From contig NZ_JARIXP010000015.1 of assembly GCF_029269265.1 (NCBI RefSeq), forward strand, positions 1-36,535: a stretch of DNA of 36,535 nt. The letters run 5' to 3'. Position numbers and translations under genes: made by a program. This document shows positions 12,836 through 33,041 of this stretch, piece after piece. Origin of the DNA: Rheinheimera sp. 1928-s. Its GTDB lineage: Bacteria; Pseudomonadota; Gammaproteobacteria; Enterobacterales; Alteromonadaceae. The notes below the pieces were generated by a model that ran no database searches, was not told the origin of the DNA, and saw only the letters and a program-made list of their open reading frames with translations. Position 1 is the first letter of the stretch, and each line of letters begins with the position of its first letter.

Positions 12836-13540
12836 TCACAAACTCCAGAGCTGTTTGAAAGCGACAGCCTGACGACGCGAGATCTCCAGCTGTAAACCGC
12901 TTTTGAGTGTTAATTCAAAGCCACCGCTGATCGATGCTTCAATAGTCTGAATATACTGTGTATTTACAATCCAGCTGCGGCTTGCGCGGAAAAAGCTTTG
13001 TTTGGGCAACTTTTGCTCCAATGTCGCCAGATTACGATAAATCAGCGGCTGGCCTGCTGAGAAATACACTTTGGTGTAATTGCCCTGAGCTTCAAAGGCA
13101 TAAACATCGGATAAAGTAATGAAATAACAGCGTTCTCCATCTTTTAAAAACACCTGACTCTGTAAAGTCATTTCCGACTGAGGCCCACCAACTGGCACTT
13201 TAGCCAACGCCGATTGCAGCCGTACTGCAGTTACAGGTTTGAGCAGATAATCTTTGGCATGATAATCAAAAGACTTCAGCGCATAACAATCAAAAGCTGT
13301 GACAAAAATCACATGGGGTTTACGGGGTAACTCGTCCAGCTGTTCCAACAAACTAAAGCCATCACCGCCCGGCATATCAATATCTAGTAACAGTAAGTCC
13401 GGCTCAGTCTGATAAATCAAGGCTTTGGCTTGTTCTACATTTTCAGCCTGCCCGGCCAACTCAATGCCCTGACACTGATTGAGCTGATTGATGAGTTCAA
13501 GCCTTGCCAGTCTGCTGTCATCTATCACCAGTACTTTCAT
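12836..13540 (-). CDS. LytTR-family response regulator
   Basis: 234 aa from the ATG at 13540, whose GGAG site lies 8 nt upstream. It overlaps the kinase stop as ATGA. A start at 13603 would run inside the kinase gene. Residues 1-about 120 are a receiver domain with D7-D8, the phospho-acceptor D53 (LLLLDIDMPGGDG), T in FVTAFD and K in DYLLKPV. The C-terminal half is a LytTR DNA-binding domain (FLKDGERCYFITLSDVYAFEAQGNYTKVYF ... FFRASRSWIVNTQYI). It should be phosphorylated by the adjacent kinase. A 20-bp-spaced GCCGTTT repeat upstream of the operon is a candidate target, which would mean autoregulation. Confidence 0.9.
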   Translation of the reverse strand: MKVLVIDDSRLARLELINQLNQCQGIELAGQAENVEQAKALIYQTEPDLLLLDIDMPGGDGFSLLEQLDELPRKPHVIFVTAFDCYALKSFDYHAKDYLLKPVTAVRLQSALAKVPVGGPQSEMTLQSQVFLKDGERCYFITLSDVYAFEAQGNYTKVYFSAGQPLIYRNLATLEQKLPKQSFFRASRSWIVNTQYIQTIEASISGGFELTLKSGLQLEISRRQAVAFKQLWSL

Positions 13541-14571
13541 TTCACAGTCTCCAACGGCAAACGAATTTCGGCGACCACTTTGTCCTGCTGTTGCTCCAGC
13601 CACAAGCTGGCTGCTCCCAGATACAAGAGTTGCAAACGCTGACGAATATTTTTTAGTCCAACTCCGGTGGTGTTCTGTGTTGTAGATTGCAGCAAACCCG
13701 GATTACTGATCTGTATACTGATTTCGCCATGCTGCACCAGAGCCCGGATCCGGATCTCGCCACCCTGAGTCAATCTGCTGATGCCATGCTTAATGGCGTT
13801 CTCGACACAAAGTTGTATCAGCAGTTTAGGGATCAATACGTTGTTACAATCCTCATCAATCTGCTCAACATACTGCAACCTGTGTTCAAATTGAATAGAA
13901 CATAAAGCAATATAAGCATGCACTATCTCCAGTTCCTGATGAAGCGCAACTTTGATGCCCTGTTCACTGTTCAGATTGTACCGCAGCATATCCGATAAAG
14001 TGGCCAGCATAGTTCTTGCGCGTTCAGGATCCTCCAAAATTAAAGCTCGTATATTATTGATGGCATTAAACAAAAAATGAGGATTTAACTGATTGATCAA
14101 GGCATCCAATTGAGTCGCATGCAATAAAGCCGTTGTCTGTCGTAATTGCCGGACTTTAATCATTGAAAAATACAAAGCAGACCAAAGTAACATCACCATC
14201 AGCATGTTAAAAAAGTTACCCTGCCCTATAGACTTGATCACAAACCAGCGCTGGTCCGGCGGAATTGGATAGCCATAGCCAAGCGCTGATAACAAAAACA
14301 CCATGATGAGCAGCATCAGGGTAGCAAAAGCAGCAATGACAACAGCACCAGCAACCAAAGTCACAGTTTGCTTAGTTAAACTGCTCTGAGCCAGTTGGTT
14401 GCGAAAGAACAGCCTGAGTCCATGTGAACCTAAGCCCGTTGCACCTATCAGCACTGCAGCATAAAGCAGTTCAGTTTCTACAAAAACTGGCCTGTTGCTT
14501 ATCATCAATGCCATCAGCACATACAACAAAGTCCAGCCTGCCCATTGCCCCCAGCTATACAAGTTGATCAT
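13537..14571 (-). CDS. LytS-type membrane sensor histidine kinase
   Basis: 344 aa. About four transmembrane segments fill the first 135 residues (near 8-24, 35-50, 70-97 and 118-137). The cytoplasmic His_kinase (PF06580) box follows, LNPHFLFNAINNIRALI, with H165 as the phospho-acceptor. The ATPase domain has the N-box VENAIKHG (N258) and the G-box TGVGLKNIRQRL. There is no extracytoplasmic sensor domain beyond short loops. ATGA overlaps join it to the serine hydrolase frame upstream and the LytTR gene downstream, so all are one operon. The signal is unknown. Co-transcription with a hydrolase suggests an envelope or peptide-related stimulus, which is inference. Confidence 0.9.
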   Translation of the reverse strand: MINLYSWGQWAGWTLLYVLMALMISNRPVFVETELLYAAVLIGATGLGSHGLRLFFRNQLAQSSLTKQTVTLVAGAVVIAAFATLMLLIMVFLLSALGYGYPIPPDQRWFVIKSIGQGNFFNMLMVMLLWSALYFSMIKVRQLRQTTALLHATQLDALINQLNPHFLFNAINNIRALILEDPERARTMLATLSDMLRYNLNSEQGIKVALHQELEIVHAYIALCSIQFEHRLQYVEQIDEDCNNVLIPKLLIQLCVENAIKHGISRLTQGGEIRIRALVQHGEISIQISNPGLLQSTTQNTTGVGLKNIRQRLQLLYLGAASLWLEQQQDKVVAEIRLPLETVK

Positions 14572-15488
14572 TTTGAAGTTTTTTCCTGCACTTTTTCGTT
14601 TTGGGCAAATTGTTGGGCCAGCTCAAAACCCTGACGGTTCAAAGGCGCTGACAGATTACTCAGGATCACTATTCCAGTTTTCAATTGGGGATCAAATACA
14701 ACAACAGAACTAAAGCCTGCGGTTTGGCCAGAATGCCAGAGCCAGTTTTTATCTGACATCCAGCCCGGAGTCATCTTTGGCTCACCGTCAACATCAAGAG
14801 GAGTCAGCCATTGCCTGATCAGCGCATCTGTCTGCTGCAACCTGAAGATGGAGCTTAACATCTGTGCCATATCTTCTACCGAAGCCACTACAGCACCGGC
14901 CCCCGCTAAAGCATCAAAATGCCAGTGTGCCATTTTCTGTCCATTCAGTGCATAACCACTGGCAAGGTTTTTATTCCCGTATCCAGGCAACTGAAGTTCC
15001 GCAGAGTTCATTGCAAGAGGCTGTAAAACCCTTTGTCGCATAATATCTGCCAAGGGTTGCTGTAAAGAAAGCTCCAGCAAGAACCCCAGCAGCCCATACC
15101 CATAATTAGAATAACTAAAATCCGCATCGCCCAGCTGTGTTTGTTGCAAAGACTGTAATAAATCATCTTTTTTATAAGTTTCATAAGGCGCAGTCAGATC
15201 ATGCAACGGCATATTAGCTGGCAGACGCGGCAATCCACTCCTGTGAGTTAACAAGGCTGCCAGACTATACTTATGCGATGGCTTTAGTGCCACCAGAGCG
15301 GGAATTTCCTGCTCTAAAGCCCATTGCCCATTCTGCAGCATGCTCAGACTGGCCAGTGCGATCAGTGGTTTTGTCACTGAGCCTATCTCAAACAGAGTGT
15401 CTTTTCTGACTGCAACTTTATGGTCGATATCAGCAAAACCGTGCAGACGATACTCAATCTGTTGATCCCTGACCAGAGCAATGGCCAC
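14568..15488 (-). CDS. Class C beta-lactamase-like serine hydrolase domain (frame -1 to the gene upstream)
   Basis: The frame from a GTG at 15488 gives 306 aa with the penicillin-binding/beta-lactamase fold motifs: SVTK (37-40, nucleophile Ser), YSN in FSYSNYGYG and HSG in WLWHSGQTAG. The GTG has no ribosome site, and the product would have no signal peptide. The frame is open further upstream to a stop at 15570-15572. That added part reads SPWLEAEFGQNAV, the normal N-terminal strand of this family. There is no ATG, GTG or TTG in it. It meets the preceding gene at an A8 run in the -1 frame, so the real product is probably a fusion with that gene. The stop overlaps the kinase start as ATGA. 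Confidence 0.8.
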   Translation of the reverse strand: MAIALVRDQQIEYRLHGFADIDHKVAVRKDTLFEIGSVTKPLIALASLSMLQNGQWALEQEIPALVALKPSHKYSLAALLTHRSGLPRLPANMPLHDLTAPYETYKKDDLLQSLQQTQLGDADFSYSNYGYGLLGFLLELSLQQPLADIMRQRVLQPLAMNSAELQLPGYGNKNLASGYALNGQKMAHWHFDALAGAGAVVASVEDMAQMLSSIFRLQQTDALIRQWLTPLDVDGEPKMTPGWMSDKNWLWHSGQTAGFSSVVVFDPQLKTGIVILSNLSAPLNRQGFELAQQFAQNEKVQEKTSK

Positions 15489-15559
15489 AGCATTCTGACC
15501 AAATTCAGCTTCAAGCCAGGGCGATAACTGCTGCAGATTTATAACCTGATGGGATCTAG

Positions 15560-16210
15560 CTAGTTTTTTTTAAAATCCAGTGGCATCGCCATGCCCTGAA
15601 CAAAGGTACCCTGCCATCGATCTTTTGCCCAAACAGCACTATAAGCAGCATTGATCAAAGACGAGCTAAAACGCAGCTGTGTATCAGATAAAGTAAATTC
15701 ATTCACTGGTATACCAAAACTCTCCTGTTTTGGGCTATCCAATGTAACGTGGTAGCCACCCGCTACTACAGCCACATTGAGCACCAGTGGCAATACTGAG
15801 TTTTTACTGATCTGTAAATCGCCAAACCATTGCTGCTCATGCTCAAGTCGCTGCATGTCCTGTTCAGACAAACGAGTAAGGGTCACCTCATGCTGACGCT
15901 GCTGAGTAAAAGTCCCTGTGAGTTTTTTTCCATCAAAGGTCCCTGAAAATGACGCTTTTAATGCCGTATCGCTAAAGCTCAGATGGTTACCATCAAGTTT
16001 AAACTGGCTAGGGATCATCTCTTTCAGATTTTGGTTTGGACTCAGCATAAACAGCTGATACCCCTGCTCTTCGTTGGTAATACGTAAAGCAAGTACTATC
16101 CGGTACTGAGGAGCAAGTTCTAAAACCCCTCGCCAATGGCCAGTAACATCCTGAGCCGACACTTTAAAACAGCACAAAAATGCAACGAAGATAAGAATAT
16201 AGTTTTTCAT
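15560..16210 (-). CDS. Exported N-terminal module of a serine hydrolase (frame ends at A8 run)
   Basis: 216 aa from the ATG at 16210, which has an ideal AAGGAGGA ribosome site. A start 10 codons earlier is unlikely. A signal peptide (MKNYILIFVAFLCCFKVSA) is followed by two related beta-rich halves, from about 22 (VTGHWRGVLELAPQYRIVLALRI) and about 125 (LPLVLNVAVVAGGYHVTLDSPKQESFGIPV). The pattern YxxTLDSPxQxxxGIP is familiar from the N-terminal domain of exported alpha/beta hydrolases and serine hydrolases, where it is followed by a catalytic domain. Here the frame stops at TAG directly after A8, while the catalytic domain continues in the -1 frame. Alone, the product would be a periplasmic, non-catalytic protein. 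Confidence 0.75.
   Translation of the reverse strand: MKNYILIFVAFLCCFKVSAQDVTGHWRGVLELAPQYRIVLALRITNEEQGYQLFMLSPNQNLKEMIPSQFKLDGNHLSFSDTALKASFSGTFDGKKLTGTFTQQRQHEVTLTRLSEQDMQRLEHEQQWFGDLQISKNSVLPLVLNVAVVAGGYHVTLDSPKQESFGIPVNEFTLSDTQLRFSSSLINAAYSAVWAKDRWQGTFVQGMAMPLDFKKN
15563..15571 (-). other. A_AAA_AAC heptamer at a -1 frame junction
   Basis: On the minus strand the upstream gene reads GAT TTT AAA AAA AAC TAG. The last seven bases before the stop fit the X_XXY_YYZ rule for -1 slippage. After a slip, decoding continues CTA GCT AGA and stays open through the whole serine hydrolase. It could be programmed frameshifting, a phase-variable A8 tract, a fixed mutation or a sequencing error. Confidence 0.55.
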
Positions 16211-16321: not shown

Positions 16322-17044
16322 TTAGTTTTCAATGCCGGATTGCCGCCACTTCTGCATATTCACTCCTTTGATCATCATCCACAGGCTTAAGGTTAACTCG
16401 CCCGCTAATACCGGTATCATAATCCATGGGAATAGCAGCGCAGCCAAATCGGGTGTAAGCAATAAAGCCAGGCTATTAACCAGATAACAACCACCAGCCA
16501 CCACTAAGAGCCCCCCGATAAAAGCTGGGAAGAAACCAGATTGAATGATCAGATAGCCGCGAAGTAAACAGGCGAAAGCAAAAAAGATCAGTCCTATAGC
16601 AAAACCATAGCCATGCAACCGAATAGCAAGATAAGACCAGGCAGCAAGCAGCTCAGAAGGAAACACCGATGCCGCAGCCATACCACCTAATAGCAGCAAC
16701 GGAATCACTAACAGCACCTTATTGGCAACCAACATGGCGGTTTGGATCAGGTTAAAAAAAGTGGCCGCCAGATTCAGCCCAGCGTTGACGCGTTTAAACA
16801 ATAAATAAAACAACACGATAATAGGAATATCCAGTAATTGCATCGATAAATCACCCACTATACCCAGGCTCCACAGCCTGGTAGATGCAGCGATATTTAT
16901 AGCAGTCGCTGCTGCATCTGAAGGCACAACCAACGTTCCTCTGACCATCAGCTCACCAAAAAGCCCCAGACCAATAATGACCAGATAAAACAGGCCACTA
17001 AGACGCACATAAAACTGTGGTGCTCGTTCAAAAGAAGAAATCAT
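16322..17044 (-). CDS. DUF4386-family integral membrane protein
   Basis: 240 aa with about six hydrophobic segments (near 14-32, 58-82, 92-120, 128-150, 155-175 and 180-215). The opening YVRLSGLFYLVIIGLGLFGELMVRGTLVVP and the block LWSLGIVGDLSMQLLDIPIIVLFYLLFKRV are typical of DUF4386 proteins. The function of the family is not known. The ATG has AAGG 7 nt upstream. It is on the same strand as the hydrolase-kinase-regulator operon, 111 nt before it, and may or may not be co-transcribed, since the candidate LytTR repeat lies in that gap. Confidence 0.75.
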   Translation of the reverse strand: MISSFERAPQFYVRLSGLFYLVIIGLGLFGELMVRGTLVVPSDAAATAINIAASTRLWSLGIVGDLSMQLLDIPIIVLFYLLFKRVNAGLNLAATFFNLIQTAMLVANKVLLVIPLLLLGGMAAASVFPSELLAAWSYLAIRLHGYGFAIGLIFFAFACLLRGYLIIQSGFFPAFIGGLLVVAGGCYLVNSLALLLTPDLAALLFPWIMIPVLAGELTLSLWMMIKGVNMQKWRQSGIEN

Positions 17045-31466: not shown

Positions 31467-32425
31467 TATTTTCTCTTTAACTTTTCCAGTACGCTACTTA
31501 ATGCTTTATCCAAAGGCGCTTCACAGGTTAACAAATTGCCTGTGCCCGGATGGGTAAAGGTCAGAGTTTTGGCATGCAAATACAAACGGTTTAAACCAAG
31601 CTTCTGCATTTGTGAGGTAAATTCGTTATCACCGTATTTATCATCACAGGCAATGGCATGACCTTTACAGGCGGTATGCACACGAATTTGGTGAGTACGG
31701 CCTGTGACAGGGAACGCCTCTACTAAAGTGCCTTCCTCATAGCGCTGCAGAATTTTAAAACGGGTTTCTGAAGGTTTACCTAAAGCTTCATCCACTTTCA
31801 CCACGCGCTCACCACTTTGTAAGGTGTTTTTACGCAGCGGATCTGTGACTTTTTTGATTTTGCTGTCCCATTGACCTGCCACTAAAGCCCAGTATTTTTT
31901 TTCTACTGTTTTTAAGCGCAGCTGTTCATGCAGATTGGTCAGCACAGAGCGTTTTTTCGCGATCAGCAAACAACCTGAAGTATCACGGTCTAAACGGTGC
32001 ACCAGTTCAAGATGACGGGCGGTTGGACGTAAAGCCCGCAAAGCTTCAATCACACCAAAAGATAAACCGCTGCCACCATGCACAGCCATACCTGTAGGTT
32101 TGTTCAGCACTATTAAATCGTTGTCTTCAAAAAGAATATGGCTTTCAAGGTTTTTCACCATCGCAAGACCAGTCGACACCGGTTCTTTTTCCGGCTCGTC
32201 ATGAACCACAAGTGGCGGCACACGCACCTGATCACCGGCTTGCAGTTTGTACTCAGGTTTTATTCTTTTTTTATTAACCCGCACTTCACCTTTGCGCAAA
32301 ACCCTATAAATCACACTCTTTGGTACGCTCTTCAAGCGCGCCATTAAGAAGTTATCTATGCGTTGACCGGAATAATCTTCTTCTACATCAATATATTGCA
32401 CCGGAGTTTTGATATTTTCAGTCAT
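31466..32425 (-). CDS. rluC: 23S rRNA pseudouridine synthase RluC
   Basis: 319 aa. An N-terminal S4 RNA-binding domain (GQRIDNFLMARLKSVPKSVIYRVLRKGEVRVNKKRIKPEYKL) precedes the RluA-type catalytic domain with the Asp of VHRLDRDTSGCLL and the GRTHQIRVH motif. RluC modifies positions 955, 2504 and 2580. It is divergent from rne, as in E. coli, which supports RluC over RluD. No clear ribosome site precedes the ATG. Confidence 0.94.
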   Translation of the reverse strand: MTENIKTPVQYIDVEEDYSGQRIDNFLMARLKSVPKSVIYRVLRKGEVRVNKKRIKPEYKLQAGDQVRVPPLVVHDEPEKEPVSTGLAMVKNLESHILFEDNDLIVLNKPTGMAVHGGSGLSFGVIEALRALRPTARHLELVHRLDRDTSGCLLIAKKRSVLTNLHEQLRLKTVEKKYWALVAGQWDSKIKKVTDPLRKNTLQSGERVVKVDEALGKPSETRFKILQRYEEGTLVEAFPVTGRTHQIRVHTACKGHAIACDDKYGDNEFTSQMQKLGLNRLYLHAKTLTFTHPGTGNLLTCEAPLDKALSSVLEKLKRK

Positions 32426-32495: not shown

Positions 32496-33041
32496 CTAAT
32501 TATGCCAAAAATGGCAATTAGGGCGCTCAAAGTGACGTAAGAGAAAATGTGAGGCACCGTTCGGGAGGCAGATCATACCGAATTCGTTGGGAAAACCAAC
32601 GTATTTATACTCTGCGGGCGAGAATAACGCTATTTGTCTGAAGTAATGCTGCGTAATTTATTACTGACAGAGACAAAACACAGCTTCCGGTCACTTAGGC
32701 AAAAAAAAATTGCGACAACGCAGCGCGGTATCGCGCGATCTCTGTGTCAGATCACAGCAAAAAACATTTAAGTGCGGCCCTGACAAGGCGGCACCAAATA
32801 TACCCGAACAGCTTTAAGTTAGAGTAAGGCGATAAGCACGCGAGCCATGACGGACTAAGATCCCTCAGATAAAGGCGGAGCAAATGCAGCCAGCCCGAAG
32901 TAGCTTCAAACTGCAAAGGTATAAAATGAGTTAGCTCAAGCATTCCCAGTCGAGAGACTGCAGCATTGATATGTTTGACCATCTGAAACGCGGACGCAGG
33001 ATGTCGTTGCGTTGTGGCCTATGTAATAGAGTCACAAAACA
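32496..33041 (+). promoter_or_regulatory. Long structured rne leader, probable autoregulatory 5' UTR
   Basis: This stretch has no supportable gene. Hairpins include CTAAT..TGCCA/TGGCA..ATTAG (32496-32521) at the predicted transcript start, GTTGG/CCAAC (32587-32601), GCGCG-GTAT-CGCGC (32732-32745) and CAGTC-GAGA-GACTG with a GNRA-type loop (32948-32961). An A9 run lies at 32701-32709. In E. coli RNase E limits its own mRNA by cleaving a long structured leader. The same logic is likely here by position, but no base-level match to the E. coli element was established. Confidence 0.55.

Follow-up and report, generated by a model that had tools for sequence, protein, structure and literature searches.

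Conserved A runs between a β module and a hydrolase as candidate programmed slip sites in split genes of Rheinheimera and its relatives

Slippage on a run of adenines lets one gene give rise to two proteins in dnaX, where the ribosome slips on A_AAA_AAG in E. coli and the polymerase on A9 in Thermus (PMC3711429). Magnesium chelatase and the programmed clusters of GeneTack consist of two overlapping ORFs with a conserved A_AAA_AAR run and have in-frame fusions in other species (PMC3711429, PMC5009743). E. coli reporters of another gene, with its own flanks and 7, 9, or 11 As, gave 10, 40, and 63%, respectively (PMC3711429)—rates that by analogy make a useful slip rate plausible for the gene described here. 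Among the experimentally supported cases, ordinary non-mobile bacterial genes account for few conserved programmed frameshifts (PMC3711429). The main texts of PMC4066793 and PMC5009743 do not mention a lactamase or serine hydrolase, and that of PMC3711429 mentions neither beta-lactamase nor serine, while listing one 'Hydrolase/Epimerase' cluster (+1) as TC. A literature search on this gene family together with frameshifting returned no paper that looked relevant. The gene family possibly stands on an older frameshift candidate list already.

The window analyzed here is a stretch of 36,535 nt from contig NZ_JARIXP010000015.1 of Rheinheimera sp. 1928-s, and all coordinates refer to it. It bears a split gene that runs from 16210 down to 14568 on the minus strand, a strand absent from the preliminary description of this DNA. 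The 0-frame ORF (15560–16210, minus strand; ATG at 16210, TAG at 15562–15560) encodes a putatively exported module of 216 aa. The signal peptide and the β-rich fold that had been proposed for it both find support: the N terminus, MKNYILIFVAFLCCFKVSA, has the appearance of a signal peptide when judged by eye, and the AlphaFold2 model (pLDDT 89.9) has its strands in residues 24–113 and 126–215—two tandem β domains. No Pfam or NCBIfam family matches the module above its cut-off. In another family, a stand-alone protein (L125:2394-3752, genome G1011) carries about four copies of the β domain behind a start that is signal-like by eye; the adjoining ORF presumably encodes a MacB/FtsX-type permease-like protein.

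The 3′ end of the module ORF reads GAT TTT AAA AAA AAC TAG, the stop codon following directly on eight As and a C. The A8 run (15564–15571, minus strand) contributes to an in-phase A_AAA_AAC heptamer, the presumed slip site (15563–15569, minus strand). Immediately upstream of the run, a TAA (15570–15572, minus strand) closes the −1 frame, which, once past this codon, stays open for 333 codons to 14571 before its own stop (ORF 14568–15569, minus strand). Being shut before the run and open after it, the −1 frame can hence be joined to the 0 frame only within about 10 nt, most of which are the A run. The split at A_AAA_AAC—with a −1 frame that opens at the run and carries the hydrolase—is as the preliminary description had it, and so are the catalytic motifs of SxxK, YxN, and HxG type, all three of which are present (SVTK, YSN, and HSG) in a PF00144 match of 172.9 bits against a cut-off of 27 (E 1.3e-50). 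As a more specific assignment, class C β-lactamase (NF033085) was rejected, for which the hydrolase scores 102.8 bits against a curated cut-off of 415. The genome holds 12 further matches to the hydrolase domain, all at most 31% identical, and thus no close second copy.

A second A8 run of the window (31895–31902) lies within an ORF, on its sense strand. The ORF, which we take to be pseudouridine-synthase-like, is intact, and this built-in control indicates that an A run by itself does not split a gene. An A9 run (32701–32709) sits between this ORF and a gene assumed to be RNase E-like, outside the listed ORFs of at least 80 aa.

Relatives of the module were searched in 295 and then 395 genomes of the family, 394 of the order, and 369 of the class, as well as in 31 and 13 genomes of two genera and 40 of a second family, all of these being overlapping sets. 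Within the genus, 3 of 22 genomes—the window's own included—contain the module. The 395-genome search gave matches in 55 genomes and full-length modules in 52, the partial matches of G049, G268, and G288 remaining outside; 22 of the 52 lie in a short open frame (217–281 aa, G006 among them) and 30 in a long one. Initially, the 30 best-scoring loci of 60 matches were examined; four more full-length ones were added later, and the remainder was partial or weak. Together with four loci of the second family, the full-length modules make up 56 loci, one per genome and the window included: 24 are split, 31 are fused in frame, and one has the module alone. Weak matches from the order search (G033, G044, G078, G147, G358, and G455) were left out, as was G518, in which one module domain is fused to an α/β hydrolase. 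Two in-frame fused homologs with other damage—a stop within the module (L120, G298) and a hydrolase broken further on (L127, G1053)—were scored as fused at the junction, and the split locus L126 was left out of the start, structure, dN/dS, and tree tests.

The split loci spread over seven genera and two families. The nearest relative, G005, shares 95% DNA identity over 1643 bases and has an identical A8 run and junction. The module-only genome G006 carries a module 71% identical to that of the window, which ends at an ordinary stop where A8 is missing; its hydrolase part is lost save for a short 3′ remnant ahead of the kinase gene. A quick tree of the kinase and regulator from 31 loci requires three changes between the split, fused, and module-only states, with long branches between split loci.

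At the junction, at least eight consecutive As are present in all 24 split loci (A8 in six, A9 in 17, and A10 in one), as opposed to 1 of 31 fused loci (Fisher 1e-14, uncorrected for kinship, with close relatives inflating the counts). In 33 loci comprising 282,733 bases, A or T runs of at least eight occur 44 times, and 23 of these, counted by coordinates, fall on the module–hydrolase junction; the run is there more often than by chance. Codon taste alone does not readily account for 24 unbroken runs either, since AAA makes up 385 of the 538 lysine codons found in the other parts of these genes. A −1 shift is needed in 22 of the 24 split loci, and each of the 22 has an in-phase A_AAA_AAN heptamer (AAG in 14, AAC in four, AAA in three, and AAT in one). 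The stretch to which the shift is confined measures 10 nt both in the window and in G005, and 19–22 nt in six more loci. A comparison of the junction with relatives had been suggested, in which either an in-frame fusion or the same heptamer would be seen; both outcomes were found, the heptamer being kept in 22 split loci and a run of at least eight being absent from 30 of 31 fused ones, which fits a programmed site. An in-frame relative with A7 or A9 and no slippery heptamer had been named as the sign of a simple mutation or sequencing error. What comes nearest is a single locus, in G665: it is fused, retains A9 within the in-frame fusion, and soon meets stops in the other frames—after 11 codons in the −1 and after two in the +1 frame. 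With such early stops, slipping in G665 would give the module alone, as in dnaX.

The two remaining split loci need +1. L105 (G660) has A8, which is shorter by one A than the run of its close relative G163 (L090), and L102 (G216) has A10 as opposed to A8 in L126 of the same genus; each now has its intact hydrolase in the +1 frame. These two may represent states of slippage, variants that are switched off, or errors of assembly.

Such differences in length bear on phase variation, by which the A run would change its length in the DNA and switch the hydrolase on in some cells and off in others. Runs of 8–10 As and the other register of G660 next to G163 speak for this. Free drift, however, predicts about one-third of junctions in each register, whereas the 25 junctions with a run of at least eight divide into 22 in −1, two in +1, and one in frame (related genomes and hence nonindependent), and the runs of the window and G005 are identical. 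We consider phase variation quite improbable, and the on/off switching through a variable A8 that the preliminary description had offered as an option fits poorly, given that 22 of 25 run-bearing junctions share a single register and one is in frame.

A pseudogene or a sequencing error is the least probable reading and close to negligible. Homopolymers are common error sites and L105 may be such a case; yet, the same kind of split recurs in 24 genomes, including G132 and G675, which are both listed as single contigs, and low dN/dS values and intact catalytic motifs argue against decay. For the module, dN/dS amounts to 0.06–0.21 (8 of 12 pairs, dS being saturated in the rest) and for the hydrolase to 0.11–0.26 (9 of 12 pairs, with the same restriction), pointing to purifying selection on both halves alike. 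SxxK, YSN, and HxG are intact in all 21 split loci of PF00144 type. Between the lone module of G006 and that of the window, dN is 0.19 and dS 2.0. At the level of sequence, the junction, its conservation, and the selection on both halves are hence well established.

The hydrolase might also be a separate protein, the translation of which would begin at a start of its own or re-initiate past the 0-frame stop. An in-frame ATG, GTG, or TTG is present within 60 nt of this stop in 14 of 23 split loci, five of which have ATG (L093, L101, L102, L108, and L112, overlapping the stop in the last). On the other side, position and kind of start differ between loci, no start within 60 nt has a Shine–Dalgarno match in any of the 23 loci, and nine loci—the window included—have no start codon at this distance at all. 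The product would presumably be devoid of a signal peptide, and re-initiation needs no A run, although 24 of 24 loci carry one. That the window hydrolase has neither a start nor a ribosome site of its own, as first described, is correct near the junction, where the first start codon of the −1 frame is a GTG 74 nt beyond the TAG without a Shine–Dalgarno match; farther off, considering the first five starts per locus, a match is found 269 nt downstream in the window, 239 nt downstream in L093, and 73 nt upstream in L106. Overall, a separate start is quite improbable.

Judged from these sequences, it is highly probable that slippage at the A run is programmed and that one gene thereby yields two exported proteins, the module as the short one and the enzyme as the long one. 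Reading kept in frame would stop at the TAG and release the folded double-β module alone. A fraction slipping by −1 on A_AAA_AAN would proceed into the catalytic domain and yield the module, a flexible linker, and the serine hydrolase in one chain. In the model of the naturally fused G665 protein (mean pLDDT 76.5), residues 220–235, just past the slip point, fall below 50, suggesting that slipping would join two separate domains. The module also occurs by itself, in G006 and, as a version of four domains, in G1011, which speaks for the same reading. We infer that both products are made and exported, in a ratio that the slip rate would set.

The preliminary description had attributed these two products to a programmed frameshift. 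The conserved heptamer and register support it, and the frameshift itself stays a deduction to which slippage of the RNA polymerase forms a nearly equivalent alternative: the run length would vary in the mRNA, a fraction of messages would have the hydrolase in frame, and the same two products would result. We slightly prefer the ribosome as the slipping machine, at roughly an even chance, and rate the polymerase a little below that. Ribosomal −1 slipping matches a register that hardly varies and a heptamer that is in phase. With 14 of 22, the commonest heptamer is A_AAA_AAG, which in E. coli belongs to those most prone to shifting when stimulators are present (PMC4066793). According to Antonov et al., mixed directions among orthologs are a sign of polymerase slippage (PMC3711429); two of 24 loci need +1 here, and 22 of 24 keep the −1 register, which is ribosomal by the same rule. 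L102 (A10) and L105 (A8), with their hydrolase in +1, are out of reach for −1 ribosomal slipping and fit the polymerase. The latter is also favored by the 8–10 As of every split locus, which exceed the need of a ribosomal heptamer, and by heptamers ending in AAC or AAT in 5 of 22 cases; altogether, the last base is C, T, or A instead of G in 8 of 22 heptamers, which counts against the ribosome. Selection against runs becomes evident at nine in a large share of genomes, whereas in some, a length of eight As is apparently sufficient (PMC1088944); 6 of the 24 runs are just A8, which weakens the case for the polymerase.

Consistent stimulators, the lack of which is a further point for the polymerase, did not emerge, although a programmed −1 ribosomal frameshift profits from them without requiring them. 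A Shine–Dalgarno-like stimulator is absent in 22 of 23 loci and present in one. The downstream RNA is unusually stable within the first 40 nt in 0 of 23 loci, and over 70 nt, 6 of 23 reach z −2 or lower. For L109, L110, and L112 (about 19–33 nt after the A run), and also for L094 and L101, the RNA of the 70-nt stretch exceeds its shuffled versions in stability (z −2.7 to −4.3); these elements are too distant or varied to be called stimulators.

The hydrolase is followed by a histidine kinase (His_kinase PF06580; 13537–14571, minus strand), a conserved neighbor whose ATG overlaps the hydrolase stop as ATGA, and by a response regulator with a LytTR domain (12836–13540, minus strand; start set at an internal ATG by comparison with L018). 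In 30 of 33 loci and in L126, kinase and LytTR regulator lie downstream with the same orientation. The order module–hydrolase–kinase–regulator holds for 30 of the 34 loci checked and module–kinase–regulator for one more, G006; in L107, L115, and L120, neither the kinase nor the regulator was found. In 13 of 23 loci, the sequence at the hydrolase stop is ATGA, and in the window and G005, this ATG is the kinase start. Such an overlap suggests that frame-shifted ribosomes arriving at the hydrolase stop would also favor translation of the kinase gene. Upstream of the module, a DUF4386 gene (16322–17044) lies on the same strand; one also adjoins the module in G006 (L018), and none was found at the other 32 loci checked.

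In the second family, a different hydrolase stands behind the same kind of run. The modules of L109, L110, and L112 end at A9, behind which stands C-TAA, C-TAG, or T-TGA. An α/β hydrolase (Hydrolase_4, E 2.4e-14 to 2.5e-17), with GHSEG in all three, is encoded in the −1 frame. These split genes likewise precede a kinase and a regulator, in the operon slot otherwise taken by the PF00144 hydrolase, and the fourth genome of this family, G579 (L111), has an in-frame fusion. Hence, the slip site either outlived an exchange of the catalytic domain or has two separate origins at one boundary. We offer only as a tentative and rather doubtful idea that the A run might be an ancient recoding hinge at the module edge of the module–hydrolase–kinase–regulator operon, which would have survived a swap of the whole catalytic domain—serine β-lactamase fold for α/β hydrolase or the reverse—and would set the proportions of enzyme, sensor, and free module through the number of ribosomes reaching the overlapping kinase gene.

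Genes of this split kind are easily mistaken for broken ones. Their interest lies in a slip site that is kept across two families, in products that appear to be exported, and in the pairing of one kind of site with either of two unrelated enzymes. The natural contrasts within the set—A8, A9, A10, fused, and module only—will be useful for separating ribosomal from polymerase slippage.

Among proteins of related build, the D-aminopeptidase DAP of Ochrobactrum anthropi (1ei5) carries barrels that follow its catalytic domain in frame; the barrels of the window gene, on the contrary, precede it, and many unrelated barrels align with the module fold as well as or better than those of DAP. Bacteroides finegoldii WP_055279051.1 (35% identity over 41% of the module) and G518 (L070) resemble the window gene in having a relative of the module domain upstream of an α/β hydrolase, and differ in being single ORFs without a frameshift. 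With magnesium chelatase and the GeneTack clusters, the present genes share the overlapping ORFs, the conserved run, and the in-frame fusions of other species, the protein being a different one. They differ from dnaX in that the unshifted product of the split loci is the short form, in that the proteins are apparently exported, and in that a combined Shine–Dalgarno and hairpin signal was not found. As in dnaX, however, one gene would provide two proteins from an A-run slip site, and in G665, the long form lies in frame and the −1 frame is the one that ends early—the dnaX arrangement itself.
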